In this document: positions 3,209 through 41,874 of the stretch, piece after piece
Position numbering within the stretch: the stretch's first letter is position 1
Layout: each line of letters opens with the position of its first letter
Source of the DNA: Lota lota
Taxonomy: Eukaryota > Chordata > Actinopteri > Gadiformes > Lotidae
DNA: 64,000 bases
Direction: 5' to 3'
Assembly (NCBI GenBank): GCA_026745465.1
Contig: JACYXH010000772.1
Coordinates: 4,857,385-4,921,384 of the forward strand
Position numbers and translations under genes: made by a program
The notes under the pieces: model-generated
What the model was told of the DNA's origin: nothing
What the model saw: only the letters and a program-made list of their open reading frames with translations
The model's database searches: none

Positions 3209-6200
3209 GTCAGGATGTTTATGTATATACCATTGCGAAGTGGGTCTTGTGAATACCAACACAGAACTGGACAAACAGGATGTCCTTGCATTATGTACCA
3301 ATATGGAGATAAAGTACAGTTATTGAGGTATTTTATAATGCAAGTGGGGGTACTGAAATGTGGAAATCAAAACAAAAGAGATTAGGTGTCTCCATACCAT
3401 TTTGCCAACACAAATAAACACTTTGAGTTCTCATGGTCAAAAAGTAACAGTTACTTATTAAAGTACATTGGAGTCATTGTTGACAACTCAACAAAGAATT
3501 TGCTCACCGTTGCAAATTAAACTGTACCAAGATAAAGCCAGTGCTGCCACTCCTTACACTGCCAGTGTTTCCAGGTATTTCTGTTTTCTTGTTGTTATTC
3601 AAATCACGTGGCCTCACTAACAGTAGCCGCTTCAAAGCTGAGTCTTATTATTTTGATAACATGAGAACATTTTATGCATGCAAGCTTAGAAAATAGAACA
3701 CAAGCATCTAACTTAACAGTTATTCTACATCTTGAGTCCTGTACTGTGAAAGGTTCTTACATACACATCTGCTACTCACTCTGAGAACCACTAAAATGTG
3801 AGAGAAGTGTTCAGTTACTGTTCCACGCAAACTGTTTATTATAAATACCTTGTGCTTCTGTAAAGGCCATCCCTGTGATTCAGAATTTACAGATAGGATC
3901 TTCATTTTCTTTGATAGAGGAGGGTAGGGTAGTAAGCCTGTAAGTCTTTACCTCAATCCCTGAAAATAATTTGTTAAATAGCTCTACACAACTGTGTGTG
4001 ACATGACATTTTTTTTATAAAAGATGGAGGGAAAAGTACATGGTGACCAATAGACGTGACCAATCACACCTTTGCACCATCAATCACTCCTTTAACAAAC
4101 AGTGCTTGCTGATGTCATGTTTTATATATTTATTTTTGCTGTATGACTTCACTGATTTGACAGCTACATAACAATGACTCATTGTAATTCAGAAGAATAA
4201 AACCTGCCCACAATGTCCATGAACTTACAAGCATGACTTCCTGAATTGTGGTTTATCAAAGGCACATGTTTTTATGTGTATCATCATTAAAACTACAAGG
4301 TGCATTTGGTCAGGTCCTTTTATAGTGATTTAAAGGCATCTAAAAAATATCCGCTTTATGAAAATCTCTACATGTGGGAATAGTAAAGAGTTAATAATAA
4401 ATAGTGTTCTTATAAAAGAAACCAAACACAATTGAACTCCACTTTCCCTGTCTTGAGATAAGCAACTTGCTGAGCAGGAAGGATCAGTTTAGGGGAAGCC
4501 ATTTAGTTATGCGTCTATTTACAGAGTCACAGATTATGATCTCTGTCAACACTCGGCGCCAAATGCCATTTAGTTTGTAGTTGAATGTTTGAAATGTATT
4601 CCTTTGAATACCATTCAGCTACACTGCATTCAGCTCAGTATCACCCAAAAAACTGGCTCCATACCTTTTCTGTGTTGAGGCCCAACTCTGTTGTAGCCAG
4701 GCTGCTCTCCAGCTCCGACAGCAGGGAGGAGTTCCCGTGGCTCCTAGCCTCCTGGAAGGACACCTCCTCCTGCAGCTCATCCACCTGGGCCTGCAGCTCC
4801 TGGGAGTGGCTCCGCTCCGTCTCTACCTCCCCCCGCGCCTCGCTCAGCTGGACACACACACACACACACGTTATTAGGAACTGTTTAGAAAAAACATCAA
4901 AGAATGACATTTTAAATGATAATTATATACACGTGAAATTATATACACGTGTACAACATGTATAATAATCAGGGATAACTAAACAAAACCTACATGTGCA
5001 ATAGACTAGGCACACATCACTTGTTTACTGCATGTTTCCGATACATCGTAGACATTACGTGGCCAGAAGAAAATCCTGACATACTAGATTCCAGTCTTGT
5101 GCCAAATGAGAAACGTTGCACATTTTCCAGCATAGGGGTGGAATCCAGAAGTGCAGGTGACAAGTGATATAATTGCAGGGATGAGGTGATTGTCTTGAAA
5201 TGCTTCCACAATCTGACCGAAACCCGAGGGACTCACAGAGCATTGTTTCCCTGGGGCATGATCATTCCCACAGCTGACCACTTTACAGTGTGTGTTTGTG
5301 TTTGTGCGTGCGTGCATATCTCTTTATAATGTATGTTCTTTCTTCTTATTTGTAGCATTTGAGAGAACTTGTGTTGTGTTTGAATATACCTGTGTAGCAT
5401 TTCAGCATGCGTGTTTGTGCGAGTGCGTATGTGTGACTGTGTCTGTGTGTGCATCTACCTGTTGGCTCTGTTGCTGGTTGCGCTGGTCCTGCAGGGCCAG
5501 TTGTGTGTGTATGGAGGCTAGGCTCTCCCTCAGCTCTGTGTTCTCCTGACACACACTCGCCAGGCGCTCCTCCAAAGCCTGCCCTCTCTGGGTCAGACGC
5601 ATCACCTAGACGGACCGCAAGCATGCCAGATTAGCCCAAGGGTTTGGTGCCCAGCACTCAGGAGGTTAGTATTACACTGCACAGTGTAGCCCAGTGATGG
5701 TTACCATTTATTAAATCAATGGTTTCCAATGGCCCCAATCAAAATGGGACCAGTGGGGATACCCAGCCCTAGCTAGGATATGAGTCAGGCTATAGTTCTA
5801 CATCAGCTTTATTCATAATAACAAAATGTAATATAATTATAAATTATTATATTACATTGTTAACTAAGCAATTCAAGTCAAGTGTAATTGAAAGTGACTT
5901 TAGTTGTTCATGGGTAATGCCCTCCTACCTGCTCCCTCATGGCACTGATCAGTTCATCATCCTGGGAACTGCTATGGGTTCCCGCCTGGTTGAGCTGTTC
6001 CTTTAGAGCTTGCAGCTCACTGGACATGGCTCTCTCCACTTCCATGGCCTGCCAACACAGCATTTACCACAGGCAATTAACATTGTCACAGTTAAAAAAA
6101 AGAAAATGCATAAAGCCCTTTAATTATGATACACTGTAACTAGGGATGCACCGATACCGATACCAGTACTCGGACCCGATACTGTGCTCATGTACTCGTA

Positions 6201-9200
6201 CTAGTAAAACTTCTCAGATACAACCACCCGATACCACTTTACACAATGTGAAGTAGCGAGCCAGTGAACCCAAAAAAAAAAGTGAAGTGAAATCTTTTTT
6301 TTGACGTGGTAATTTGTCTTATATGATCGTCAATATAGTAATCTGTGCCATTTTATCACTGTTAATTAAATAAGTCCCCAATTGAGAGGAAAAAAGGGGT
6401 ACAATCCTATGTTTTTGCTGTTCTCCCCAAAACACTACGTGAACGTTCCGCTCTGCTGCGAAGCAGGAGGCGTTCTTTTCGTGACGTCAGACTACCTTTT
6501 CTGAGCTAGTCTGACGTCACGACCAAGGGACACCGGCGGCGCGGTCTGTTGACACCATTGACACCTGAATAACGCTACGGTGTGTGGCGCATTTCATATA
6601 CAACATCGCTCATCATAACGCTCATACACGACGGTACTAAAAAAGCATCAACGTTTATTATAACTTTTACTTTCCTAGAACTCTCTGCCCAAAATGTTTT
6701 ATTTTTATTTTAAATCTCATAGTGTTCGAATTCCCGCTGAAACAGTGGGTTCACTGGCTCTTTAAACTGTAATGGTATTATTAAGTACTCCTAATGGAAG
6801 TACTTGTACTTGTACTTGGTCTGCGAAAAAGTTGAATCGGTGCATCCCTAACTGTAACCATCAGTTAGCCTACCACCAGAAATAAACATAATATTAGAAA
6901 AAAAAAGTGAAATCCACCAATACTTGGCAGTAAATTGAGAGCTGGCCGTTCAATATTAGGATTAAACGAGTCATGTTGTGTTCTTCTGCTCCATGGGCCA
7001 AACTCAACTTTGCCTGTTGACAAACTTCTGGTAGTTCAGCCCCCTGTCCCCATTTTCTGAAGCATGAAGGGACTACAACAATAGGGCCGGCTTCCTTTCA
7101 ATATCATTACACGTCATCAAATGTGGACTCTTGGTCTATAACCACACGCCTGTTCCAACAGTAACAATTTGCCCCAGTTCTGTAGTCCCAAACGATGAAA
7201 GACGAGTACCTTTGTCCCAATCCCCACTCCGCCCCACCCTGCTCCATTGGGCCAGGACTCCTAGTTCCCCATGCTCAGCGTTTCGGCGGGGCCCTGTCAG
7301 TTCCCATCAAAGCCACACAATGGAGGATGAAAGGCCAGACTGTGTGGCAGATGGAGCCAGGGGCCAGGCATCTTGGCCATGGCATTGACATGGTGCCATG
7401 TTAGACAATAAAGTGGCAGGGTGGGGATGAGAACCAGGGCCTTATTGGTGTTAGTAGAGGAGAGAGAACATCTGTATACTATGTGTGTAAATGGGAGAGT
7501 ACAAGGGATATGCCTGGGGTGGGGGGGGGGGGGGGGGGGGGGGAAGGTGTGGGATAGGGTGCAGGTTTGTGTGCGTGTGCTGAGCGCATGCTAGCGGGAC
7601 AACAAAAGCGAAACCCAGGACATCTTGAGGGGCCCGCTTGGAGGCGCGTGGTGTGTAGGTGGGGACGCGCGCCAGCGTCCATCAGCCTCCATTATCCCCC
7701 AAAGGGACCATTTAGCACAGAGGCACGCAGCGTCCTCACAATAGAGGCAGCGACCCACTGGGAATTAACAGAGTCTCACGGGTGGAAGGAGGACGCTCCA
7801 TTTGCTGGAAACACAAAGGACCTCCAGGGGGATGTCCCCTCAAAGGGCCCCTTTGCCGTTCCCTCCCCCTCCCCCAAAGCTTCAGCCTCCAGCCGAAGCA
7901 ATATGCCAGGTTGTCCAACGACAGCTGAATACACCAGCGATTGGTGCAGCACCGTGGGGAGCGATCTGAGGGTGTGACCAAAACAAGCCATTTCCCCCAG
8001 GATAGAGTGGTGTTTGGGGGGGGGGGTTGGATTTACATCTCTCTGAAATCTATATTGTGTTCTGCTTCATGTTAGCGAGCCCCCATGACGCTTTGCACGA
8101 GAAGCCAAAGGTCAGGGGCTGCCTCAAACCTGGCGTCTCTTTTTTACAATAACGGAAGCCCAGGGTGAGCGATGTGACAGGTGTCTTTTATTTTCAGAGT
8201 ATTGTTTATTGTATTTGAAGTTAGAATGGTTTAACTTCAACAGTCTTCTAACTATATTAATATGACATGAGGTTCAGTTAGCTTTGCACAGAAACAGCCG
8301 GTAGAAATGTCAGAGGGCTACTTTTATACTTTGAGTACATTTCAGAGCCTGTACTTTTCTACTTTTACTTAAGTAAAGAAGTTGAATCAGTACTTCTACT
8401 TTTACCAGAGTCTTTTTTTTCTACAAGTATCTGTACTTCTACTTGAGTTAAGAATGTGTGTACTTTTGCCCCCACTGCCCACCGCCCATACCTGCAGGAA
8501 GTGACCACGTGACAGGTCTTAACAGTAGCTCTATTTAAGCTGTGGTTAAGCGTACACGGATTGAAATATGACTCACTGGGACCAATACATTAAATTAAAC
8601 ATGTTTATTCATTGGCAATTATTTTAGCCTGACATGCATCGTTTATTTTCCTGCAAGTGAACGAATCTAAATCATTTATCCTGATTGTTGCTACTGTAGA
8701 TAGTCGTATCTATCTGTGAGTGTTTGACTACAAATAACTACATGTTAAACATATTTCTATCTTCTATGAAACTACTCAATACTTCCATTCCGGGCCAACA
8801 CTTCTTCCCAACAAGACCTCAATATCAGCATTTCTGAGAAGTGATATGATATGAAGCCAAGGATATGTTCATTCGAAGTAGAAATGAAAGGGTTTCAAAA
8901 ATCTATCCACATTCTTTTTGATGCCTCAGATGGTATTTAATCACATAACCTTGTGGCAATGCATGTTTAGATGATCAGTTCTATGATTGAGCCCCTGTCA
9001 GCAATGTGCCAGCAACTCCATTGAATCACCTCCCACACTAAATAAACAGTGATGGGTAAAAACACAGTTGATGCCAGACTTCATTGGAATTGCAGAATTT
9101 ATCAACAAACATGTATTTATATTAAATCCCCATAAACATTGACATCTGAACATTACATTTAGTCCATTCTTTGCTACATGTCTTGTATACACTAGCCTTG

Positions 9201-12888: not shown

Positions 12889-13967
12889 ATTTCACATTCT
12901 CAATCTACTATCTCGGGATTGTCGACCCAGATGAATGATAGACAGTTCAACCTACAGGCCCACCCAGTGGACTGAACCAACTGGGAGGCTGATCTATCCA
13001 TCATCTTGGTGGACACTCCACCCTTGTGATTTCACTAGAGGGTAGAGTGTCACTCATGGTGAAACTATTATAGTCGAGATACTTAAAATGACCTGTGATC
13101 TGTGTAAATGTGATTAGAGTTTAACTGACAGTGGCCAAGAGTATGCACACTATAGGCTTGTGTTTACCATATTTATAAATGAATGGTGGTAAATCGGGAC
13201 ATGCATCTCTTGCGTTTTCCGGTACCTGGGCAGTTATGCTATTTGCATGTTACTTGTGTGAACAATTAGACCTATAAACTGTGATGCCCATGTATATAGA
13301 CATATAACTTGTATGAACAATTATAGGCCTACAGTATTTTCAAAAACCACACACACATCTTAAAGACTGTCTTTTCCTTTATTTGACAATATGCATCAGA
13401 AGGAAGCATTCCACAACAATCCTGTGTCTTCAGATCAGAAAAGTTGTGCATCATGCATACAAGCCTCAAATCACCATACCAAAGCCATATAAATGTAAGG
13501 TAAATGTCCTTTTAGTTGAATTTTCTTTCTAATTTGTATTGCTTTCTAATGTTCTAGTCTTCGGATTTCCGGTTACCAGGCATACACAAAGTATATTTAA
13601 TAGCTGTTACTGCGGTAACAGTGACCTTGTAGTAAACACAATGGCATATCAAAGTTAGCCAAACATAAATCTTCTGGCTATGGATGGTCATTTGAGAGAG
13701 TGTAGGCTAATCCTTTGTCCTTTGGACGTTCACTTTCATCCAATTATACTCCCAGTCCCTCGCAGAACATAATATGCTACTCATGATGTAGTAAAAATTT
13801 ATAAAAATGATGTGCTAACGGCGATGCAAAGTCCTACTGGAAATCCACAGATAAATCACGGGAAAGACTTACACACACCATGCATAACTCTGGGTATTAT
13901 ATATATACTAGGTAAACATCCTTACTGTACCAACATAGATATATTTTTGTTTCTCTTTCTTCTGAAA

Positions 13968-14036
13968 AATGTACTTATTGTAAGTCGCTTTGGATAAAAG
14001 CATCTGCAAAATGCCCTAAATGTAAATGTAAATGTA
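13968..14036 (+). repeat. 3' tail of a fish SINE/LINE2-type element
   Basis: The stretch contains TAAGTCGCTTTGGATAAAAG, then CATCTGCAAAATG and an (AAATGT)n tail. This is the tail shared by many fish SINEs and their partner LINEs. No 5' head was seen here. Confidence 0.8.
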
Positions 14037-23449: not shown

Positions 23450-27897
<4,448 letters not shown>

Positions 27898-28784
27898 CGA
27901 AGTACAGCTGTTACTCAGGACCTGCTTTTGGGGAGGTTATATGGGGACACATCCCCCTCTGGAACACTAGGTGTTACAAGAGGCTAGCTGGTAAAGAGGG
28001 CGTGCTCTGGATATTGGAATATGGAGCAGTGCAATACATTTGTAATGCAGTTGGAAAGTTAACCACCAAAAATGTAAATTGCGTGGATGAGATGATATAC
28101 CCCCACATTAGGTAGAGCAATTTGGTGTCTTGAAAGCACTACATAAATGCAATAATTACTCAAGTTGTCTTCTGTGCTAGTATCTCAAGGGTTTAGCAAA
28201 GATGTTCATTGGTCTTTCCTTTCAAAAGGTTAAGTACAGTTTAAGCACAAGACTAATCATTAGCATGTGTCAGATCTTGGAGTGGATTATTTTCAATGAA
28301 CCCACCTGCATACTTGAAATCATGTTTTGAGGCAATATGTACATATTTGGATATAAAATGTCAAACTTCACATTACATTCAATAAACATGGACTATTTGA
28401 TCCATCCATTATGCACTGTTTCTGAATTTCAAGAGAATTATTATATTTAAAAATTACAAACGCATTATTGGTCTTTAGAAATGCATTTATTGCAATAATA
28501 GTGGCAACTTTGCTGGATAAGATAACAAGCAAAGACTCAGCCATTGAAAAACCAGGTTCTCGTGCCAGAACGCATGTGGAGTCTCCACTACTCCTAGTGC
28601 TCTAGTTGTCACTCACTCCCGACCTCAATTCTTCAGTGGTGACACATCCGCTTGCTTACATGTCATCTCCAAGCTGAATGTTATCCAAGCGTCTGTGGGT
28701 GAAAAGAGTATACATTGTAGTCAAACATTATGGTTAATGCAATGACTTGCACTATGCTTGCATTGTGAAATACTCATGTTTCCT

Positions 28785-29400
28785 TTTGTGGTTCCAAATG
28801 AGAATATGTTACAACATTAAACACAGGTTGAACCATCTGCATGTTTGGGTGTTAGTAAAAGCAGAAAGGTTGATTGAAAAGGCAACGTGTGCTATCCATT
28901 ATGTGTAGACCGAAGCACACGGATAGCATTTTCATTCACCGCTATACAAAGACAGCAGGGAAGACAATACAGAACAAAATTAATTTTAGCCAAACTGGCT
29001 GATTACATTTGTATTCACATTGACACGAAGATACAAATACGGAACAGTACTCCTATCCTTGTGTAGAGGTCAGGTGTGAAAGGTTCTCTAGCATGGTGTC
29101 TGGCTGCATTGACCACTGAGAGGCTAACACAGAATTCGTCCACGCATCATTAACTTGGAATTTTAATTTACATTAAAATACGAGTTACCTTTATCCCCAC
29201 TCATTTCGGCCAGCCAGGAGCCACATCCCGCTTTACGGCACTGGACTTTCCTTTGGTTCCAAATGAGAATATGTTAAAACACTGAACACAAGTTGAACAA
29301 TCTGCATGTTTGGGTGTTAGTAAGCGCAGAAAGCTTGATTAAAAAGGCAATGCATGTTATCTATGTGTAGACCTAAGCAGACAAATAGCATTTTCTTAAT
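28785..29400. repeat. duplicated intronic segment within the snoRNA unit
   Basis: About 150 bases at 28789-28940 (GGTTCCAAATGAGAATATGT through to the TAGCATTTTC end) recur at 29256-29395. Together with the repeated snoRNA and exon copies, this shows that the unit grew by tandem duplications of unequal size. Confidence 0.8.
29007..29148 (-). ncRNA. H/ACA snoRNA candidate, SNORA15-like, copy A
   Basis: The 5' hairpin has lower stem GCGTGG/CCATGC, pocket strands ACGAATTC and GCCAGACA, and upper stem TGTGTTAGCC/GGTCAATGCA. H box AGAGAA follows. The 3' hairpin is closed by TTCACA/TGTGAA with inner AGGATA/TATCTT, then ACA box ACAAAT. The pocket can pair with 18S rRNA around TGTCTGG-UU-AATTC, the site I recall as Psi1367, guided by SNORA15 in humans. 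This copy is nearly identical to copies B and C. Confidence 0.75.
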
Positions 29401-29797
29401 ATATAGGACATGCCAACTTAATTGCTTTTTTCTTCTGCCCGCACTAAATACTACAGATGTCGTTTCCATTAAAGATTTCTAAGGGCGTTACCTCTGAAGG
29501 CCACTCCAAATGGTTCCTTGAATAGTGCTCAGTTCTGAGTTGTACCGTTGAAAAGTTGGGGTTCCTGCCTGGTTCTGAACTTACACCTGGAAAAGGGGAG
29601 ATAATGTTGATCAAATTCATGTTTCAAGAATTGAAGGGTCAATTTCGTAATGCTCAAAAACGTTACATTTTCCACATAATGCCAGATTGAGCCCACGTTG
29701 TTCAAAGAATACTCCGAGAAGTAGTCAACCATGTCAAAGACAGCAGGGAAGACAGTACAGAACAAAATAAAAAAAATTAGCCAAACAGGCTGATAAC

Positions 29798-29933
29798 ATT
29801 TGTATTCACATTGACATGAGGATACAAATACGGAACAGTATCCTTGTGTAGAGGTCAGGTGTGAAAGGTTCTCTAGCATGGTGTCTGGCTGCATTGACCA
29901 CTGAGAGGCTAACACAGAATTCGTCCACGCATC
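29798..29933 (-). ncRNA. H/ACA snoRNA candidate, SNORA15-like, copy B
   Basis: Same architecture as copy A: GCGTGG/CCATGC stem, GAATTC and CCAGACA pocket strands, H box AGAGAA, TTCACA/TGTGAA stem, ACAAAT end. The apical loop of the 3' hairpin is a few bases shorter, and AGGATA/TATCCT pairs perfectly. Confidence 0.75.
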
Positions 29934-30429
29934 ATTAACTTGAATTTACATTCAAAATGAGTTACCTTTATCCACCACTCATTTCGGCCAGCCAGGAGCC
30001 ACCATCCTGCTCCTGTTTGTTTTTTTACTGAACGCACAAATTTTTTTTTTGATATACACACTTAATACAACTGTACTTTCCATTTAAGATTTATAAAAAG
30101 GGCTCTACCTCTGAAGTCCACTCCAAATGGTTCCTTGAATAGTGCTCAATTCTGAGTTATACCATTGACAAGTTGGTGTTTCTGCCCGGTTCTGAACTTG
30201 AACCTGGAAAAGGGGCGATAATGTTGATCAAATTCATGTTTCAAGTCATGATTTCGAAATGCTCAAGATCCTTGATGTTCAAACCCGGAACATTTTCCAC
30301 CCAACAATGACAGATTGAGCGTTATCCAAAGAATACTCAGAAGTAAGTTAGTCAACCGCGTCAAAGACAGCATGTAAGACACAATAACGTATCAGAATAA
30401 AATAAATCGTAGCCAAACAGACTGATTAC

Positions 30430-30570
30430 TTTTGTATTCACATTGACCGAGGATACAAATACGGAACAGTACTCCTATCCTTGTGAAGAGGTCAGGTGTG
30501 AAAGGTTATCTAGCATGGTGTCTGGCTGCATTGACCACTGAGAGGCTAACACAGAATTCGTCCACGCATC
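30430..30570 (-). ncRNA. H/ACA snoRNA candidate, SNORA15-like, copy C
   Basis: Same 5' hairpin and guide pocket as copy A. H box is AGATAA. The 3' hairpin pairs best of the copies: TTCACA/TGTGAA, TGACC/GGTCA and AGGATA/TATCCT. ACA box ACAAAA ends it. Confidence 0.75.
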
Positions 30571-30831
30571 ATTAACTTTAATTTACATTAAAATACGAAT
30601 TACCTTTATCCACCAACCACCACTCATTTCGACTAGTAAAGAGCCACCATCCCGCTTCACTGCACTGAAAGAAACAATTAAAATGCACGATTAAAAAGCC
30701 TGCGTGCCCACTGCCCAGTGAGGCCTTATATTCAGGACACGTGGTACTGCACTATTGATGGATCTATAATAGCAGCGATCAACTCGACATACACACTTCT
30801 TATAAATATGCATGGGTAAATCATTTTGTAA

Positions 30832-30967
30832 CGTTATTCACTCTGAGATTAGACTGTGACACGAAACAGCACGTAGCCATACAGCTAATGGAGAGCGAGC
30901 ATACTTTAGCATGGTGTCTGGCTGCGGTTACTTTGGACATCAGTAACACCGAATTCTACCATGCATC
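30832..30967 (-). ncRNA. H/ACA snoRNA candidate, SNORA15-like, diverged copy D
   Basis: The most promoter-proximal copy. The lower stem is a perfect GCATGG/CCATGC and the apical stem is GTTAC/GTAAC. The guide strands GAATTC and CCAGACA are kept. H box is AAAGTA. The 3' hairpin has a different sequence, closed by TCGCTCT/AGAGTGA, and the box reads ATAACG instead of ACANNN. Keeping the pocket while the stems and 3' hairpin change argues for selection on the guide. Confidence 0.65.
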
Positions 30968-31100
30968 ATACGGTTACATGTACCTTTTAACAGTTGCCTT
31001 CTTTGTAGAGATGCGTTTTTCGGAGATTACTCACGCCGGCCTATCACCGTCTGGGGCTGCTTCGGGTTCTGGGTGGCCCCAGAACCCATAAGATGTGTGA

Positions 31101-31539
31101 GCATATCGGAACTGCTTATATATTGTAGGACTTCTGTGCTTGTTTTAACCACGTGTTCACAACTCGAAGATCTTCAGAGAGCTGCTGCTGGATTGCTTTG
31201 TCTTCCGGGACCAAATAGGCGGGGCGTTTGATTATGGGCGGGGCATAGCACATTCCATTTTTTGCGAAAATAGTGAAATTAAGTTTGTATAGTAAGAATG
31301 TACATATTCCCACCTCTGTTTTAATAGCGACGTATGTGAATAATATAACGAGAAGAAGCTATTTGTATGCAAGTGCGGCCCCATGCGGTCGGTATTTAAT
31401 GTAATTTATTATACAGAGTTCTTTCAAATGTCAGTGATTAGTTCAACCCAGGCGTTGTGGGCGGGTTCACTCGCCGGCTCTCTTTTGATTGGCTCTGCGG
31501 CTCAGCTTCAATGCTTTCTCTTCCTCGCTACTAGACTCA
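31101..31539. promoter_or_regulatory. bidirectional promoter between the snoRNA unit and psph
   Basis: The two units are divergent, about 450 bases apart. On the minus side there are a GC box (GCCCCGCCC near 31232-31243), further GC-rich sequence and a TATATAAG about 30 bases before the likely start near 31090. On the plus side there is an ATTGG (reverse CCAAT) box near 31488, with GGGCGGG just before it. In humans PSPH and CCT6A are likewise divergent neighbours. Confidence 0.55.
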
Positions 31540-31610
31540 ATGAATATTAGACTGGTGAAAAGGTTCTGCCTGAGGAGCTCCTGCCTGTTATATCATCGTC
31601 GCTGCAACCA
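31540..31610 (+). other. psph: possible upstream coding exon of psph (mitochondrial-type extension)
   Basis: An ATG at 31540 opens 23 codons plus two bases up to the donor GTAAGT at 31611. Spliced to the acceptor at 32324, this stays in frame with the canonical psph ATG, joined by Gln-Thr. The added 25 residues begin MNIRLVKRFCLRSSC, carry about eight basic and no acidic residues, and resemble a mitochondrial presequence. A short upstream frame (31510-31533, seven codons and stop) precedes it. Translation from this ATG is inference. Confidence 0.5.
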
Positions 31611-32328
31611 GTAAGTTTCAACAAGAAGTTGCTGAATACGTTAAGTTACTTTGTGGAACGACGTACTTGCAGTCCGATTTTCGAAGAGGCTGCATGTGAA
31701 TCAAATAAAGGGTTGTGCTCATTTCCATTCAGGTAACGTTACCATTCTCAAAGCTAATGCAGATTCCACAAAAAGTTGATATTTAATTTAAAATGCCAGT
31801 TCCACGGATTGATGCATCGTTCGTTTTGCGTTGCAGGAAGTGTAAAATGGCTTGCTGATTACCAAGTGGCAGTGTTTAGTATTTCTGTTCCATCTATTTT
31901 CCTTTTCTCTAACTGGGTGACGCAACATCGCCAGACAATGTCTACCTAGTAAGGCCCATCAAGTCAGTCAGAGCGGCCTGTTTTGGTCATGCATTCTTCA
32001 AATACTCAATGGCTATTCATTATCAAGATTTTAAAGCAGCTATGCCGAAAATGCAGATTTTCGACTGCCGTTTGGGAATGTGTTTATAGCCACAGACCTA
32101 CTTGCACAAAACGACAAGTAGGTCTACGGTTAATTATGAAAGACCTGCTGCTACTACGTTTTCAATTCGTGACCGACCATTATTAAATGACTCCAATGAT
32201 CATTGTCGTTTCTGACTGCATGTGAGCCAGTTTAAACCTCAAATGAAATGCTATACATGCAAGGTGAGTTTCTCGAATTATAGTGTCGACTAATGATGGA
32301 TGCTTTCCTATTTATTTTTTCTAGAACG

Positions 32329-34532
32329 ATGACGTCTCTATCCCAGACACAGGAGATGTTCAGGAGGGCAGAAGCTGTCTGCTTTGATGTAGACAGCACA
32401 GTTATCAAAGAAGAGGGTATTGATGAACTGGCCAAATTCTGTGGTGTCGGGGACGCAGTCACTGAAATGTATGTCTGATGCTTTGGCCTACATTGGTGGA
32501 TTATGTCATTCATCATCACATTTCTCAGCCATTGTTCTATTCAGTCAGGTGAATACCTTGTCAATATTGAAATGTGTTTCTGTAACCTTTTAGGACGCGT
32601 AATGCCATGGGTGGGTCAGTCACATTCAAGACGGCCCTTTCTGAACGATTGTCCATCATCCGCTGCTCTAGAGAACAAGTGAACAAACTGATAACAGACC
32701 ACCCCCCTCAGTTGACTGCAGGTATTAAGTAAGTGTGTGTAGATCCCAATTAGTTTCATGTATATTTCCTATCCTAAAAACTTTGGAATGTCATTGTAAA
32801 TTATGAATCACAACATATATTAGAATGACTATTATGTGAGAGCTGGGTAATTAAGCAAATCTTGACATTAGATTGTACCATACCCCGTCTTCTCATTGTC
32901 ATCCAGTGTTCTCAGTGAGCTATTGTCTCTCCAGGGAACTTGTGGACCGGCTTCACGAGCGCAATGTCAAGGTCTTCCTCATATCTGGTGGGTTCCGCTG
33001 CATCGTTGAGCATGTAGCAGCTCAACTCGATATTCCTCTCGACCACGTCTACGCGAACAGGCTCAAGTTCTACTTTAATGGTAAACTCAGTCATATAAAG
33101 TTTTATCATTCACAGGTTCCCATATGATTCTTGAAATGAATAACTTGGTAATCATGGTAATTTAAGCCACCTGTGTAGAACAGCTGGTGTATGATAGTTT
33201 GATGGTGTTCTTCTATGCAACAACAACCAAAAGCAAGCAATGTTTTGCTTGTTATATTGTTAGTCTGGGGAATGGTAGATGGGACCCCAATAAACTTTCA
33301 CAAGACTTTATTCAAAGGGTGAGCACTGAACATGTGCAGCGGATTCTTTATTTGATCTGCCTCACTGTAGCAGACAACAGGTTTAAGGAAACAGAAGACT
33401 AGGTCTACTTAAAGTTGAAGTGTGTAGTATTTAGTGGCATCTAGCAGTGAGGTTGCAGATTAACCAACTGAATACCCCCACCCTCCCTTTCCAACGACAT
33501 AGGAGAAGCTACGGTGGCCTGTAAGGTGCCAGTAGGTACTTCCAAACTGATGTCATCGTCTACGACAGAATCGAGTAGCCAAGTGTCAAGGGATAAGGTT
33601 CCTTGATAGATTGGTACATTCTATTTTGTAATTTAGTCTGGAAAAGTAAAGGTGATAGCATAAAAGTGAGATAGCAATTATGATTACAAATTTAAAAACA
33701 CATTTGTACGTTGTGGGCTACTGTAGAAATATTGTGGTGCAACAGAGCGGGCCCGTTAAGAGGACCCGCTCCACATGTACATGTAAGGGGCTCATTCTAA
33801 CGGAAACTCAATCTTATTTTCATGGGTTTATACACCAATTAAAACACTTCTAGCAGAATCTATCGGTTCCGCTAGATTCCATTTAATTCTACACACTGCA
33901 CCTTTTAATTCTGCCCAGGAAATGTTGACCTTACAGGGGAGCAGAAGATAAACACTGTTGCATTTGCATGTTTGTTTTTCCTTTTTATCAGTTATGTTCA
34001 ATTATATGAAACTTATTATTTAAGAACTCATGTAAAGCCAGTGTCTTGTAATCCATGTTTTGTCGTAATTTTTCCACAACATTTTATCCCCCCTGTAATA
34101 TCTTTCAATACTTGTTATAATAATAATGCTAGTCATACTGGGTTCCCTAAAAGAAACATGCACGGTTTGTTTTTTCAGGTGAATACGCTGGGTTTGACGA
34201 CAGCCAGCCCACAGCAGAGAGTGGTGGAAAAGGTCGGGTGATCAGCATGCTGAAGGAACAGTATGGCTTCAAGTCGGTGGTGATGATCGGAGATGGGGCC
34301 ACTGACCTGGAGGCCTGCCCCCCTGCTGTGAGTGTCCTGTCAGACTGCGCTTTGATGCACTCTTCTGTTTCTTTCTTAATCTATTGAGTAACACGTTTGC
34401 TTTTTTCCTTCTTTGTTTCAGAGTGCTTTCATTGGTTTTGGTGGGAATGTCATTAGACCACAGGTCAAAGAGAGGAGTTTGTGGTTTGTCACAAGTTTTG
34501 GAGAACTACTGAAGGAACTGGAGAAGATCTAG
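32329..34532 (+). CDS. psph: phosphoserine phosphatase, five coding exons
   Basis: Catalyses the last step of serine synthesis, phosphoserine to serine. Exons are 32329-32468, 32594-32728, 32935-33080, 34179-34327 and 34422-34532, giving 226 residues (human 225). HAD-superfamily motifs: FDVDSTV with nucleophile Asp20 and acid Asp22, LISGGF with Ser109, GGKGR with Lys158, and GDGATD with Asp179 and Asp183. These positions equal the human numbering. The start MTSLSQTQEMFRRAEAVCFD aligns end to end with the human start, so ATG 32329 is taken as canonical. An upstream exon could extend it in frame (see 31540-31610). AATAAA signals lie at 35104 and further on. Confidence 0.97.
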
Positions 34533-35810
34533 AAAGGAACAGCTGCACTGGTACTTTGTTTACTATGTTTTATGCACCTTATGGCGTGCCGTCGTTTGTT
34601 TTATCAATTCATTATGTTTTCACAAGGTCATCCTGTCAAGATTTTATGATAAAAATGTTTACACTACAACAGTGAGTTAATTTAGACATTTTGGGGGTTG
34701 TTTCCCCCCCTATTAATTTTTATACATGATAATATAATGAATTACAATCAACCACAAACTATATATTTAAGGAGTTCAATATTTTGAGCACTTTTTGCAT
34801 TAACACTTTAGTAAAAGTCATGAAAACAAACGTGCAATGAGTAAGAAACGTTGAACATCTGTATGAAACCTAAGGAGTATAAAATACATCTGTGCATATT
34901 TATCCGTCAAGTGAGTTGGTGGAGATTCACTAGTAACGGACCAGTGTAAACTATTTTGTGACAAGAACGCGTTGCTTACACTTTTCCATGTTTATTCAGT
35001 AGGTGACACAAAACTAAAAACCGTTTTTAGTGACATGCTTTGAGCATGTTTAAACCAATAACACCTTTTTCAAACGTTACATGCAATCTTGACAAAGTGA
35101 AAAATAAATACTTTTTCACCAAATGAAATCAAAGCGCTTTTTCTTTTTTTAAACTGATAAGAAAAGCCAGATACATTTTCAGTGCCTATAGCAACATGCT
35201 GCAATTAAAATGATTTTGACCTAAATCTGTATACTCGAAAGACTATACAATTGATAATTTCATGTTTAATATACACTGATGATTGGCATATGTTAGTATA
35301 TGTGCCACTTTGCAATGTACATACATTATGCAATGTTAATATGTACATAACATAATAAATAGCCACTGCATTATAAAATGAGTGTATGTAGCTTTTTCAT
35401 AACTTACAACAGTAACTTCCCATTTATCACGCTATAACAGGGTTTCATTTGTTGAGTCTTTGCTTGTGTCATTATTTAGTTCTTTATGGTCAGCTTTATG
35501 GTATGTTTTTGGCTCACAATACAATCCGACAAAACACTTTAGGGCTACGGTTGGCCTTTTCACTGACAATGAAAGTAGTATTTCTCAAATGAAAGTTACG
35601 AGCCAAGTGTTTATCTGCATTCTGTCTTTGATGCTATGTTTTGAAAAAGTAACAACTGTTGGCCTGGTAAGACCCAAAAACAACTAACTTTGAAGGGAGG
35701 ATGTGTTGCTTGGCAACAGCGAGAGGAGTTTGAAACCTGTGATGGCAGTGATGTTTATAACGGATAAAGCATTCCGGAAGGTTCCATTTGATTTCAAACG
35801 GCTTCTCTGT
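34533..35810. other. psph / nipsnap2 convergent 3' region
   Basis: AT-rich sequence between convergent stop codons. A plus-strand AATAAA at 35104-35109 and a minus-strand AATAAA at 34991-34996 are candidates for the two genes' 3' ends. If both are used, the 3' UTRs overlap. No other gene was seen. Confidence 0.45.
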
Positions 35811-38800
35811 TTACTTCAGCGGGGACGCCTTAGTGGGGATCATGATCCTGGAATCCATGTGCTGAATAAGAGGAACTGGAGAAAAATACAAAAAGGTTGC
35901 AAATTAAGGACGATGGATTTCTCACACCCCAAAAATCTTGCCGCATAGTCTAGAGTTCTTTAAGAATGTATGCATTATGTTTGGTCACGTTGTCCTCACC
36001 GGTGTAGTACACCACCTCGTCCCAGCCTTCGTGCTGCCAGGCTGCGTTCCTTGTGTTTTCCCTAGATTGTAGGTCTTTGTAAGCTGCAATGACAAACACC
36101 CAATCACACTACTGTGCTGTACGCATTGATTCAATACTTTTATGAGCTATCCTACTTATGGTGTGACGTATTTCCAAGTGAAACACAAATTTAGCGTGCA
36201 AACAGGAATATATTTTCAGTATTTGAGTAGATCATGGTTGGCAGTGGCATGGATAAGCACATTGCAGGCTTCATATAATGAAGAAGGGAGATAATAGATT
36301 ATTGGCTGAGCGTTAGTTGTCACAACCAACAAAAACCGGGCTGTAGCGGAGGCAATGCTTATTACATTTGGATGTAAAATACCTAATACACATTAGAATT
36401 GTGTTTTGCATACAAAGATTAAAGGGCCCCTATTTTACCACCAGGTGTGAGTGTGATTAGCCATTACAAGCCGTTTCTAAATCTGCCCTTCCCTGTGCCT
36501 TGGTGACATCAGACAGCAGATTTTGAAAAGGCTTGTAATGGCTAATCACACTCACACCTGGTGGTAAAATAGGGGCCCTGCAATAGTATGAAAAAAAAAA
36601 AAAGCCCACATTCATTTACTTTTATTTATATTCATCATTTTAAAATGTCATCAAGGACCTATTGGTCTACCTGAGTTGAGTATATGCTAATGAAATGTAT
36701 TCATATTTTTAAGGAAGTCCTGCATGCATCTTACCCCAGAGATGATGCACCATGTAGAGGTTTCCGATCTGGGAGAAGAAGCCGCCTACTGCCTCACTGT
36801 TGTGCTGGCGATAGCCGATGGCTCTGGCCCTGCAGAGAGGAACAGGTTGGATCACAGACCCAACACACTTCACTGTGGAAAGAGCTGATTCAAGGCAGCA
36901 TATTATTATTGGTGACCACAGATAATTAAAGTCGCATTGTGTGAAATTGAGCCCCTCCCAGTTAGTAGGTGGGAGACATTCAGACTTTAACAAACTCATT
37001 AAGTGTTCTGTCACGTCTAACTGGCTGTGCAACTGTGTGACGCGAACTAGTGTAGCTTGGGTGGCGTGAGTGGGAGGGGTTTGGGAGTGTCAATAGTAAG
37101 GTACAGCCAGCATTTTTTTTCATCACTTTTGAACTCACTATCGATCAGCATTGACTACAGATGTGTCCAGGTTATTTTAAAAGGTACGAATTTGTTGAAA
37201 TGGTACACATTGAGACCTTAACAATCATAATTTATTTTTATTTATTTTTCTCTTCGGACTGGCTTGCATTGAAGAAAGTGTGCATTAGACACGATTGTTT
37301 TATATATGGTTTGAATATTAATTACCCAAAGGAAATAAAGAGAAAATTATTGAATTTATATCAAAATGACAATTATAACATGCTTTGACAAATGATTAAG
37401 CAGAAACAGCATTAAATGTTTCTCCAGAAGTATATTCACTTTTTCTTTTTTTGCCATACATTGCTTTAGTGATTAAGTTAGTCAACATTTGAAATGCTCA
37501 AACCTCTTGTTTCATTTGAGGGTTGTATTTGAAACCATTATATAATAATGGTTTCACATAAAGGCATGTCAAAATCTAAAATAAAAAGGAAAATATTATT
37601 AAAAGCAAGGTTAAGCAGAAAACTGTATAGCTCAAATTGCATTTACATTGCAGATAAATAACAGGCTATAATGACACATAACACTAATCTTAGTTGAACA
37701 TCAGTTCATCACCATAGGTCTTCACTTTACAGCTAATTTATTTCTAATAGAGAAGCCAAATATGTGCGTTTCAATTGTATGAATTTTTATTTGAGTAATT
37801 TAGCTAATGATCAATCCAAAGGGACTTAGTGATAGAGATACTTCGACTCAAGGAAGCCTGCAGATAGGTGGCCATGTCACAAAGGGCATCACAATGAAAA
37901 GGAAGGGAACAACCTTCATGCGGGGAGTGGAGAACCCTAGCCTCTGCACCACCCTATCCACCACACACTGAGCCGTGAGCCAAATAGTACGATATCAAAA
38001 TAGGCTGCGTCTGGGGAGTGGTTCTTATTAATGAGGGAGAACTGGTTTCATGTGATCCAAGTGTTCTGTAAGTACAGTGAAATTCAAATAAAATCAGGCT
38101 GTCTTACCAGTAATTACCCCACTCAATCATGGTTCCAGGCTAGGAAGAAATAAAGAACGCAATCTTTAAGCAGAGGGTCACCATTCCTGATGAATGTTGG
38201 GTTCCTGTGTGCCTTAATAAAAAGGCACGCTTTAATAACGTGTTGCATAACTTCACCTTTAGGATCACTACAATTATTTTCTGCAACAAATTCCTCAACA
38301 TACTTATCTCAGTCTGTGATAAGGATTCAGGGACACAAGAATCTATAATGTATTAGGAATTATCATTTAAGTCATAAGTCATTTAAAAAGGCATGCAAAG
38401 GGGATGACTTTCATTTTCAATAGTTTTTTGGCAAAAATGTTTTGCATAGAAACACTGGGAATCTCCAAACACAGGTCCAGATGGAAATTAAAGGGCATCA
38501 CAATGAAAAGGTCAATAAAGGCTCAGTTACATGCCTTTCTGCCTGGCCCTAATACTCTTCCTTATCATACACAGCATCCGCTGAATACACAAAAGAGAAA
38601 ATCGATGCATTACTTTGTGTAACTAAACGTATTTTAGTTAAAGACCCCACCCCCCGTCAACTGCTCACCCTGAGCTGGTAGGACCTGAGCTCATAGATGT
38701 TTGGGCCGTCCCGGGGAACCGGCTCGTTCCAGAAGCTGAACTCGAGGAGGAGCTGGTTCCTACGAGACAGCAGCATCTTACCCCGCTCTTTTCGGTACTC

Positions 38801-41186
38801 CACAAACTCCTGGAACAAAAAACACAGGTCAATCCATAGATAACATGCTGCAACACAGTGCTGGTCAGCCATTGCTGGTGGACTCAATAACAGTGATAGT
38901 AAGAAAGTGACGTGAAGCTGTACCTTGTTTTCCCTGAGCTTGGTCATCACCTCTGTAAGAGCTGGGTAGCCTCCTCTGTAGCGCCACAAATGGACTGGAG
39001 CAAAATAGAAGCCATCATTTAATAGACGTAATGACAATGCATTAAAAGATTTAAGGTCGAAGGACTCATTTCACTATGCTTTGCATACTGAAATGACATG
39101 TACATGTTTTTATTAAATCAAGATTCCGGTTGTGTCATAATCTGACCTAGAGTCACAATCCGAAGTCCTTTACCATCTACATTCTCATTTGGCAGCACGA
39201 AGCAATTTTGACACAGTTTAAAATGAAACGGAATGTTTGTTTACAATGAACACGAGATGGATGTAACAAGTAAATGTGTACGTATAGATTGAACAATGTT
39301 ATTATACACAACAGAGGTCCGCTCCATGGTTACTCCTACAGCGGACGTTAGGCTCCACCGTGCCCAACACACCAGCAGAGGTCAGTATACAGTCAACAAC
39401 GTCCAAGGTTAGCCGTCTCAGAATACAACGAAGAAGCCCCGAAGGAAACCACTCAAGATCAACTTCAACTATGCTGCTATAAAATAACATGCCAGCAAAT
39501 AACATTAAAAATTCGTTTGTGGTGGTGAACACAGTCCTACCAGCCTGATCCTGCTCTCCATACCAGGTGTTCCAAGTCCCCACGAGCTCACAGGGGTAGT
39601 ACTTATCAGCGTGGATGGCTGGCAGGATCTCCTCACTGAGGAGAATGAACAACAGCATTACCTTCGTAACATCATCCCTTTACAGTGTGATTTAAAGAAA
39701 TCTACAACCACCGACAAATATAATGACATCCATAGTGTAGTAGAACCCTAGGAGACTTGCATTGATAGATCTTAAGTTATCATATACATCTTATGTGAAT
39801 GTGAGTATCATATCATTATGAAGTATACGACATCATTCAGATAACAATAAACAAGGTAGTCAGTTCATGACCTTTTCCATCAAGGAGTATTAAAAGGTGT
39901 ATTTGTGACTGAGGGTGCCTCTGGGTCATCTAAATTAACAGCCAGGGTATTCTTTGATTGGCCAATCACCTCACAGGAATAGCTGTTGACATTTTCAACA
40001 CCACCAAATACTAATAATACTAATAGATAAAGACTATTACTATTGCTATTATTTGCCCAGGTCTCATTATATGATGCTTTAACTTCTGCTGCTGCCGCTA
40101 CCTAATATTATTAAAATTATAAATAAATTGTAGAAAGTTAAAAATAAAACATACAAACACTTACCATATTTTATTGTATGCATCAAGGCACTCAGGCTTG
40201 ACATTGTGAACTGCAAACAAATATAAAAATAAATGTGTGTTGATGATATTAATATTGATAGGAAAGAACACTCCTTAGAGTGACTTACACTGGATTTTGT
40301 ACAAGTTGCTTTCCTCATTCTTGGTCAGCAGATTGGCGTGTGCATCTTTCCTGGGATCAACTTTCCTTACAAAGAGAGACTTGAACCAGCTGTCCTCTTT
40401 GTATCTGGTGCTCGATACGGCCAGGCTCCTGCGAATTAAATCAAATAACAACAAAAATAACTGAACAATATCCTTCTATCCAAAAGTGTTATTATATTTC
40501 TATAATAGTCATTATATTGTATTTAGTAGCGTGATGATTAGGACTTGAACCTATGTCAAGTGCAGCAAAAATCCTAAATAGTGTCATAATGTTATCATTG
40601 TACATCATGGATATGTTCATAAGTATTTACTATTACCTTATATATTCCATTAGTTTGTCGTTTGTTTTTCTAGACAAAATCTACACAGGTCAATACCATC
40701 TCATGTTTCTTAAACATCACATTTTGACAAGGCAAAATCATAAGAAACCAACAACATGACCTTGAGCTTACGAAGCTTCAACATTAGAGACCAACATCCA
40801 TCTCAAATGATCGGACCTGTCCTTTGTAGCAAAAGGTACGTGGTGTCACTTCTTCTACAACTCACTGAAGGGACACACAATAGTTTAAGCTTGATTTGAT
40901 CTTGCCAGAAGCACAGTGGCTAGTAGGGCTAGCTTCTCGTCAGAAGCCTAGTGGCTAGTAGGCTAGCTTCAGTCCGTTCCACTGTACAGGAGGGCTAGCG
41001 GGACACGATAGCACTTTTATAAAGTCCGGAGACTGACACATCACAAACGCTAAGCACAATGAATGTTGAACATACAAAGTGATAACTGTCCAACCTGCTC
41101 AAAATGACGGCATGCCCTGCGGAGGTCGCCATATTATTGGCCAGATATAAGCCATTGCTTATTCTCTGAAGGACTCGGGTCGCCAT
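35811..41186 (-). CDS. nipsnap2: NIPSNAP2 (GBAS), mitochondrial NIPSNAP-family protein, ten exons
   Basis: NIPSNAP proteins are mitochondrial and act as mitophagy 'eat-me' signals when exposed on damaged mitochondria. Exons are 41095-41186 (ATG), 40289-40428, 40165-40210, 39541-39635, 38924-38994, 38669-38809, 38108-38139, 36735-36829, 36000-36083 and 35811-35875. All phases agree, giving 286 residues, the same as human. The N-terminus [18 protein letters not shown] is a basic, acid-free targeting peptide. Family blocks include [82 protein letters not shown] and [20 protein letters not shown]. The first block and orthologous order next to psph favour NIPSNAP2 over NIPSNAP1. Confidence 0.95.
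36423..36579. mobile_element. foldback MITE with perfect 50-bp arms
   Basis: The arms 36423-36472 and 36530-36579 are exact reverse complements (AGGGCCCCTATTTTACC... and ...GGTAAAATAGGGGCCCT) around a 57-base spacer. No coding capacity and no clear target duplication. It lies in a nipsnap2 intron; a partial relative is at 12837-12888. Perfect arms suggest a young copy. Confidence 0.9.
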
Positions 41187-41874
41187 CTTCCAGCTGTAAG
41201 TGAAGAAAGTCGTTCCCTACTGTGTCCACAGGGCGGCAGCAGACCACCACGCTGTGTTGGGTGGTTTAGATGCAATGCGATGCCTGGTGCTAAAAAGACA
41301 TATTTTCATGATCCGAGACTTTTCAGGCACGTGCCACTTAATTTAATACAATGCCATTAATTCATAAACTCTTGTGGAATCGTCGTGTCTTAGAGGTAAT
41401 GCAATGAAACATCTAGATTCATCCATATTATTAAAGCATTTGACTTAGTGCATTCTTGTTTGTTATGTTTTATATTCCTTTTTTTTTCAAAATAAAGAGC
41501 AGATCAGTTGCAATGGCAATTTGCCCTGCATGGAAAGATCAAAATGTTGCTGTATGAAGGAATTCAGAAGAACTGATTTATAATTTCAAATACGCAAAGT
41601 GGAGCCAGTCAATCCTTTGTCCTTTAAGGAATGCTTGCCATTCTTGGAATATATCAAACAGTTGGAAAGGATAGCTATAACATTTAAAAACATCAATCAA
41701 AAGGTAGGCCTGCACAAGGATACTTTTTGCGTGTTTCAAACAAAGATATCCAAGATTGCACTTGATACAGATTTTTATCATGATCCTTTGGCCTCTGTCT
41801 GTAGTTGTCTGTGTTTCTGACTCTCGTTCCGCCTCTGTCTCTGTGTCTGTGTCTCTCATTCTGTCTTTCTCTGC

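Follow-up and report, generated by a model that had tools for sequence, protein, structure and literature searches.

Four SNORA15-like H/ACA RNAs in a predicted non-coding host gene at the CCT6A position of Lota lota

The stretch of DNA analysed here (the window) comprises 64,000 nucleotides (nt) of contig JACYXH010000772.1 from the Lota lota assembly GCA_026745465.1. Between PHKG1 and PSPH, where the human gene order has CCT6A, it carries four minus-strand copies of an H/ACA small nucleolar RNA (snoRNA) of the SNORA15 type, set in introns of a predicted gene which does not appear to code for a protein. An earlier sequence-only reading had drawn attention to these copies and to their host. We have now scored them against RNA family models, compared the repeat units with each other and searched the genome for the chaperonin gene itself, cct6a, which lies with its own snoRNAs in a paralogous block on another contig, C367.

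Results

The snoRNA copies

Scanning the whole window with the Rfam models (cmscan) gave four matches over the curated cut-offs, three of which are SNORA15 (RF00398, gathering score 47 bits) on the minus strand. A further copy lies next to them:

30824..30964, minus strand: SNORA15-like H/ACA copy 1, RF00398 39.0 bits, boxes and pocket letters present, the most diverged copy
30430..30567, minus strand: SNORA15 copy 2, RF00398 58.1 bits, and fold
29798..29930, minus strand: SNORA15 copy 3, RF00398 60.9 bits, and fold
29007..29145, minus strand: SNORA15 copy 4, RF00398 57.1 bits, and fold

Copies 2–4 pass the family score of at least 47 bits; copy 1 is named SNORA15-like, not SNORA15. Each of the four matches spans model positions 1–137. 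The lengths of copies 1–4 (141, 138, 133 and 139 nt) are close to the 135–142 nt that had been predicted for the RNA. Hairpin, H box, hairpin and ACA box with an open pocket are obtained for copies 2–4 by the minimum-energy fold and for copy 1 when the fold is constrained. The first hairpin is identical among copies 2–4 and its minimum-energy fold by itself leaves the pocket open; the upper stem of copy 1 is unlike that of the others. The pocket strands GAATT and CCAGACA were found in all four copies, and in each of them CCAGACA starts 14 nt ahead of the H box. The consensus fold of the four copies has two-sided changes in 2 of 28 pairs, within a doubtful helix, and therefore no covariation argument is drawn.

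The Rfam test of the sequence-only reading thus yielded hits to the family that it had named. Its four minus-strand SNORA15-like H/ACA copies were recovered, three over the cut-off and the fourth at 39.0 bits, with the boxes in 4/4, and so was the bipartite pocket shared by all of them. The H/ACA shape that it had described for the four was borne out by the minimum-energy fold in copies 2–4, but in copy 1 the pocket opens only under constraint.

We take the target letters of 18S ribosomal RNA (18S) to be UGUCUGG-UU-AAUUC. The two pocket strands, GAAUU and CCAGACA, are the reverse complements of AAUUC and UGUCUGG, which flank the UU, and against these letters the pocket is complementary to 18S over 7 + 5 bases in all four copies. 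The Rfam consensus has GAAUA where the fish RNAs have GAAUU, which gives the latter one more paired base on this strand. The assigned target of SNORA15 (ACA15, RF00398) is 18S U1367 (PMC7072173, PMC6466398), and PMC6466398 agrees with the earlier placing of human SNORA15 in CCT6A. In Xenopus, the 18S site predicted for one of two SNORA15 copies (yeast position 1136) was reported to be unmodified in every species (PMC8522698). Guide assignments can therefore fail, and the U1367 role in this fish is a predicted one.

The host gene

The copies lie in an inferred minus-strand gene of seven exons:

31116..31122, minus strand: TATATAA box-like sequence, read in the sequence
31035..31091, minus strand: inferred exon 1, GT donor GTGAGT; 5' end guessed from the TATA-like box
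30604..30664, minus strand: inferred exon 2, type A repeat, CAG acceptor, GTAATT donor
30109..30203, minus strand: inferred exon 3, type B repeat, polypyrimidine-CAG acceptor, GT donor
29966..30012, minus strand: inferred exon 4, type A repeat, acceptor with a poor pyrimidine tract
29492..29586, minus strand: inferred exon 5, type B repeat, differing from exon 3 by 10/95 substitutions
29189..29240, minus strand: inferred exon 6, type A repeat, acceptor with a poor pyrimidine tract
28470..28692, minus strand: inferred terminal exon 7, CACCCACAG acceptor, AATAAA; 3' end guessed
28486..28491, minus strand: poly(A) signal AATAAA, read in the sequence

Its six GT-AG introns measure 370, 400, 96, 379, 251 and 496 bases, and four of the six (introns 1, 2, 4 and 6) carry snoRNAs. 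The range 28486–31100 given to the locus earlier has the AATAAA signal at one end and the inferred exon 1 at the other. The joined model has 630 nt and its longest open reading frame (ORF) codes for 50 amino acids (aa), a length matched or beaten in 34% of 500 single-base shuffles. With an ORF not beyond chance, the seven-exon model is in agreement with the non-coding host that had been proposed, and as a sequence model the gene has the features of a non-coding snoRNA host, which is predicted to be transcribed and spliced. An E-box-like CACGTG motif lies at 31150–31155 on the minus strand, upstream of the inferred host start and in the interval common with PSPH. A 5'-TOP/TCT start site has been reported for zebrafish snoRNA hosts (PMC6954239). 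No clear pyrimidine tract was seen downstream of TATATAA at the inferred host start, which is itself a guessed position.

Tandem duplication has enlarged the host: the snoRNA unit is present three times, and a 148-base piece containing the type B exon twice. Between units 2 and 3, the snoRNA differs by 4/132 substitutions and 7 gap columns, the intron behind it by 39/204 substitutions and 29 gap columns, and the intron before it by 4/35 substitutions; the type A exons differ by 6/46 and the type B exons by 10/95 substitutions. Between units 2 and 4, the substitutions are 4/138 in the snoRNA, 10/60 where the intron behind it can be aligned and 1/36 in the intron before it; these three regions differ by 2/133, 6/60 and 3/35 between units 3 and 4. 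Gap columns in the type A exons number 7, 9 and 2 for the three unit pairs. The snoRNA is thus the most conserved part in most unit comparisons; the intron before it is about equal for units 2 and 4.

The neighbourhood

Two neighbours flank the host on the opposite strand:

25135..27897, plus strand: PHKG1 exons, tail to tail with the host, Pkinase (Pfam) for 25966–26169
32284..34384, plus strand: PSPH coding exons, divergent neighbour, TIGR00338 serB and HAD partial matches

The name PHKG1 is the one which we presume from reading the last exon. PSPH gave serB (TIGR00338) fragments of 51.3 and 33.5 bits (cut-off 144.15) and a HAD match of 27.6 bits (cut-off 27). A plus-strand gene with a CHCH domain, read as CHCHD2 by eye, scored 24.0 bits, below Pfam's 27.2, and the exon tried of the minus-strand gene read as NIPSNAP2 (which we take to be the newer name of GBAS) matched nothing in Pfam or NCBIfam. 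The order in the window is CHCHD2-like (+), PHKG1 (+), host (−), PSPH (+) and the NIPSNAP2 gene (−). A human gene list gives MRPS17, GBAS, PSPH, CCT6A, SUMF2, PHKG1 and CHCHD2 (PMC2999539), and in the pig CHCHD2, PHKG1, SUMF2 and CCT6A were listed (PMC4207639). Going by these lists, the host is placed in the CCT6A slot, on the matching strand and back to back with PSPH. The CCT6A position divergent from PSPH, as claimed by the sequence-only reading, is consistent with the human list, and the strand of the host agrees; the statement that human CCT6A sits between PHKG1 and PSPH was correct as to position but left out SUMF2, which lies between CCT6A and PHKG1. The other above-cut-off Rfam match in the window is the UnaL2-type 3' end of a long interspersed nuclear element, at 13967–14020 on the plus strand (60.6 bits).

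The paralogous block and cct6a

The search of the whole 575 Mb genome with TIGR02347 (CCT zeta) gave 24 matches. Eleven of them, with 27.3–152.5 bits and covering positions 1–488 of 531, make up cct6a at C367:594193-602560 on the minus strand; the remaining protein end was read by eye and the gene looks complete. The other 13, on other contigs, none of them above 49.5 bits and none in the window, are taken for other CCT subunits. On the same strand as cct6a, C367 carries sumf2 (Pfam FGE-sulfatase in both exon pieces), another nipsnap2-like gene, an mrps17-like gene (uS17 with 20.4 bits and E 3.9e-4, well short of the cut-off of 88.7) and, beyond sumf2, a coiled-coil gene paralogous to the one at the left end of the window. 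Two single-exon claudin-like genes near this block (C367:560001-570000, about 3414–8283) were read by eye.

Two gene pairs, nipsnap2-like and coiled-coil, keep order and strand in both blocks; the other genes are complementary singles. Pieces of PHKG1, PSPH and CHCHD2 gave no match with an E value under 0.12 in C367:560001-640000. Similarly, 11 CCT6A and two SUMF2 exon pieces gave chance-level matches at best in the window, none of them below E 0.08, and no ORF of the window corresponded to the mrps17-like place on C367. For the identity counts, seven matched stretches were picked by hand, six of them nipsnap2-like, of which one was skipped for a gap. The five nipsnap2-like stretches left are identical between the blocks at 145/179 residues and 27/56 fourfold sites, and the coiled-coil stretch at 30/39 residues and 6/11 fourfold sites. 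Because the fourfold sites are near saturation, the block duplication is old.

On its own strand, cct6a has three SNORA22-like RNAs in its introns:

C367:594791-594926, cct6a strand: SNORA22-like, 75.4 bits
C367:598073-598208, cct6a strand: SNORA22-like, 76.6 bits
C367:601237-601358, cct6a strand: SNORA22-like, 53.8 bits

These three were the only SNORA22 matches reported in a genome-wide search that scored 49 of 56,149 candidates. The RNAs at 594791–594926 and 598073–598208 are nearly identical and lie in different cct6a introns. This suggests a recent duplication or gene conversion within cct6a, which may parallel the SNORA15 amplification.

Search for SNORA15 elsewhere

Genome-wide, three SNORA15 matches were obtained, all at this locus (50 of 47,475 candidates scored). 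In cct6a, a model built from the four copies and run with filters off reached at most 11.7 bits (L037) and 9.1 bits (L038); the same model scores its own members at 112.7–157.2 bits. The 17-base core GCAGCCAGACACCATGC has 291 matches at up to 2 mismatches, and none of the eight lying outside the window with 0–1 mismatch (C812 and seven others) has a SNORA15 at E≤1 in its 3 kb locus.

Two candidates were rejected. A possible fifth copy at 33350–33483 on the minus strand (four-copy model 19.5 bits, E 0.007) differs in its pocket letters, and Rfam gave nothing at E≤1 in 31700–41500. C466:85539-86621 scored 78.9 bits with the four-copy model and gave no Rfam SNORA15 at E≤0.5; as a further SNORA15 gene it was discarded, because it consists of two truncated intron fragments. 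These fragments (C466:80001-90000, 5539–5944 and 6328–6621) reproduce parts of the last snoRNA-bearing intron of the host at about 90–91% identity and are set in minisatellite-like repeats; the first of them has the second half of the snoRNA only and misses the guide hairpin.

Discussion

We consider it likely that the locus is a dedicated non-coding SNORA15 host which was left in the CCT6A slot after an ancient block duplication. Taken together, the genes of the two blocks fit between one another to give the human order that has been published, and a duplication followed by complementary loss would explain both blocks. This duplication was probably that of the teleost genome. An ancestral CCT6A would have carried both SNORA15 and SNORA22. 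After the duplication, one copy would have retained the chaperonin and SNORA22 and shed SNORA15; the other would have lost the coding exons and SNORA22 and retained SNORA15, owing to a continued need for this guide, which tandem duplication within the locus would then have brought to four copies. RNA polymerase II would transcribe the host from the interval common with PSPH, splicing and trimming would free the snoRNAs, and the spliced exons would be discarded. Each snoRNA would then bind the H/ACA proteins and direct pseudouridylation of 18S at the position of human U1367. That one protein and two unrelated guide RNAs were so cleanly divided by a genome duplication, and that SNORA15 alone keeps the non-coding copy alive, is a stronger claim, towards which we lean slightly. 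Of the earlier proposal that the snoRNA was kept and multiplied after the chaperonin gene had left, the multiplication stands; the chaperonin gene, however, persists in the paralogous block.

Several observations weigh against this interpretation. In 27901–32300, the best tblastn match of the 11 CCT6A exon pieces was 15 aa long, on the wrong strand and at E 0.009, and the best blastn match had 16 bases (E 0.051). The recognisable exon remnants that mark a CCT6A pseudogene were not found in the host. With no CCT6A trace in it, the descent of the host therefore rests on position, strand and snoRNA content. The duplication is dated from near-saturated fourfold sites (27/56, nipsnap2-like) of one fish. 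Copy 1, with 39.0 bits and E 7.1e-5 in a lenient Rfam scan of 28400–31800 (3.4 kb), stays below 47 bits, and its minimum-energy fold shuts part of the pocket, which opens only under constraint. Two of the six acceptors, at exons 4 and 6, look weak and have no good pyrimidine tract. The three SNORA22-like RNAs are all under the Rfam cut-off of 80. The genome-wide covariance searches scored a limited number of candidates, the SNORA15 run missed copy 1, and other copies could be missed in the same way. The fish's own 18S was not found in the assembly by a 30-base pattern with 1 mismatch, and a 20-base pattern gave a single match with 2 mismatches, taken as spurious. Moreover, gene conversion between the units could be another cause of the likeness of the snoRNAs.

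SnoRNAs are known to be mobile, and a SNORA15 copy might have jumped, by retroposition or otherwise, into the gap between PHKG1 and PSPH and gained a host there, cct6a having moved away independently. The lack of similarity between the host exons and cct6a would fit such a jump, and the truncated host-intron fragments copied to C466 indicate that pieces of the locus do move. However, the only SNORA15 locus found is the CCT6A slot, on the matching strand, and human SNORA15 lies in CCT6A; moreover, the nipsnap2-like and coiled-coil genes are duplicated in the same order, so that the block itself was duplicated and cct6a need not have moved. We therefore regard a jump as improbable. The host might instead be a decaying pseudogene, the snoRNAs of which are hardly or not expressed. 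Its expression is a prediction from sequence, copy 1 is under the Rfam cut-off and a truncated copy exists elsewhere. Decay is nevertheless unlikely in our view: differences are far fewer in the snoRNA parts than in the introns around them, the boxes and pocket letters are intact in 4/4 copies, the splice signals are complete, and the genome gave no further SNORA15, either among the 50 of 47,475 candidates that were scored or at the core matches with 0–1 mismatch. It is very unlikely that the exons are what matters, whether by coding for a short protein or by acting as a long non-coding RNA (lncRNA), with the snoRNAs as passengers. The type B exons do have fewer substitutions per site (10/95) than the intron behind the snoRNA, but the type A exons differ by insertions and deletions, the snoRNAs differ less than either exon type, and an ORF of 50 aa, the longest one here, is nothing unusual in shuffled sequence.

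A non-coding SNORA15 host left in the CCT6A slot may be compared with several known systems. Human SNORA15 is located in CCT6A, and the pseudogene CCT6P1 contains human SNORA22 (PMC6466398; CCT6P1 also PMC10454564). The Rfam family and the assigned target, 18S U1367, are those of human SNORA15, but the fish has four copies in one non-coding host, and its cct6a lies in a paralogous block where no SNORA15 was found. CCT6P1 with SNORA22 is the closest published case that was met, since there, too, a non-coding relative of CCT6A has been retained as a snoRNA carrier. The human non-coding duplicate, however, has SNORA22, whereas the fish non-coding locus has SNORA15 and the SNORA22-like RNAs are in coding cct6a. 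Splicing of CCT6P1 exons 2 and 3 has been measured (PMC10454564), and we take these exons to flank human SNORA22. The SNORA22-like RNA at 601237–601358 sits between the second and third coding exons of cct6a; the likeness to the placement in CCT6P1 is suggestive only, as the exon numbering may differ.

In yeasts, after a genome duplication, the protein is found at one locus and the intronic snoRNA at the other, with six cases of a snoRNA left in a paralogous region without the protein gene (PMC4202332). Protein and snoRNA were thus divided between loci after duplication, as proposed here. The yeast process was, however, a deintronization in which the intronless protein gene was kept (PMC4202332), whereas the fish snoRNA stays intronic in a spliced non-coding gene model and has been amplified, and the protein gene keeps a second snoRNA family. 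In medaka, a locus of the teleost duplication has kept miR-499 after the loss of its host MYH14 (PMC3716903). There, too, an intronic small RNA outlasted its coding host at such a locus, but it is a microRNA which became non-intronic, and its host is absent from the genome. It has also been described that lncRNAs can descend from protein-coding genes as "fossils" (PMC5577775). What these, together with snoRNA hosts such as GAS5, have in common with the present locus is a non-coding gene where a coding one has been lost; the main text of PMC5577775 uses none of the terms 'host', 'small RNA' and 'genome duplication'.

Neither a case of this kind nor a mention of SNORA15 was met in PMC6954239, PMC10234308 and PMC3511168. 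No earlier report of the locus was met among the literature hits listed, in which subscription papers were little covered, nor was a vertebrate snoRNA that is intronic in a non-coding descendant while the coding copy carries a different snoRNA family. The principle is already known from the yeast snoRNAs and medaka miR-499; the vertebrate split of two snoRNA families would be the new part.

Should the split be as old as the teleost duplication, all or most teleosts would make the 18S U1367 guide independently of chaperonin expression. In primates, CCT6P1 and SNORA22 would represent a separate split of this kind. The intronic snoRNA would then be the selected part which holds a duplicated gene after the loss of its protein, in a vertebrate in which the coding partner is present for comparison. 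The pair of blocks would thus offer a natural test of whether snoRNAs sit in ribosome- or chaperone-related genes because co-expression matters.

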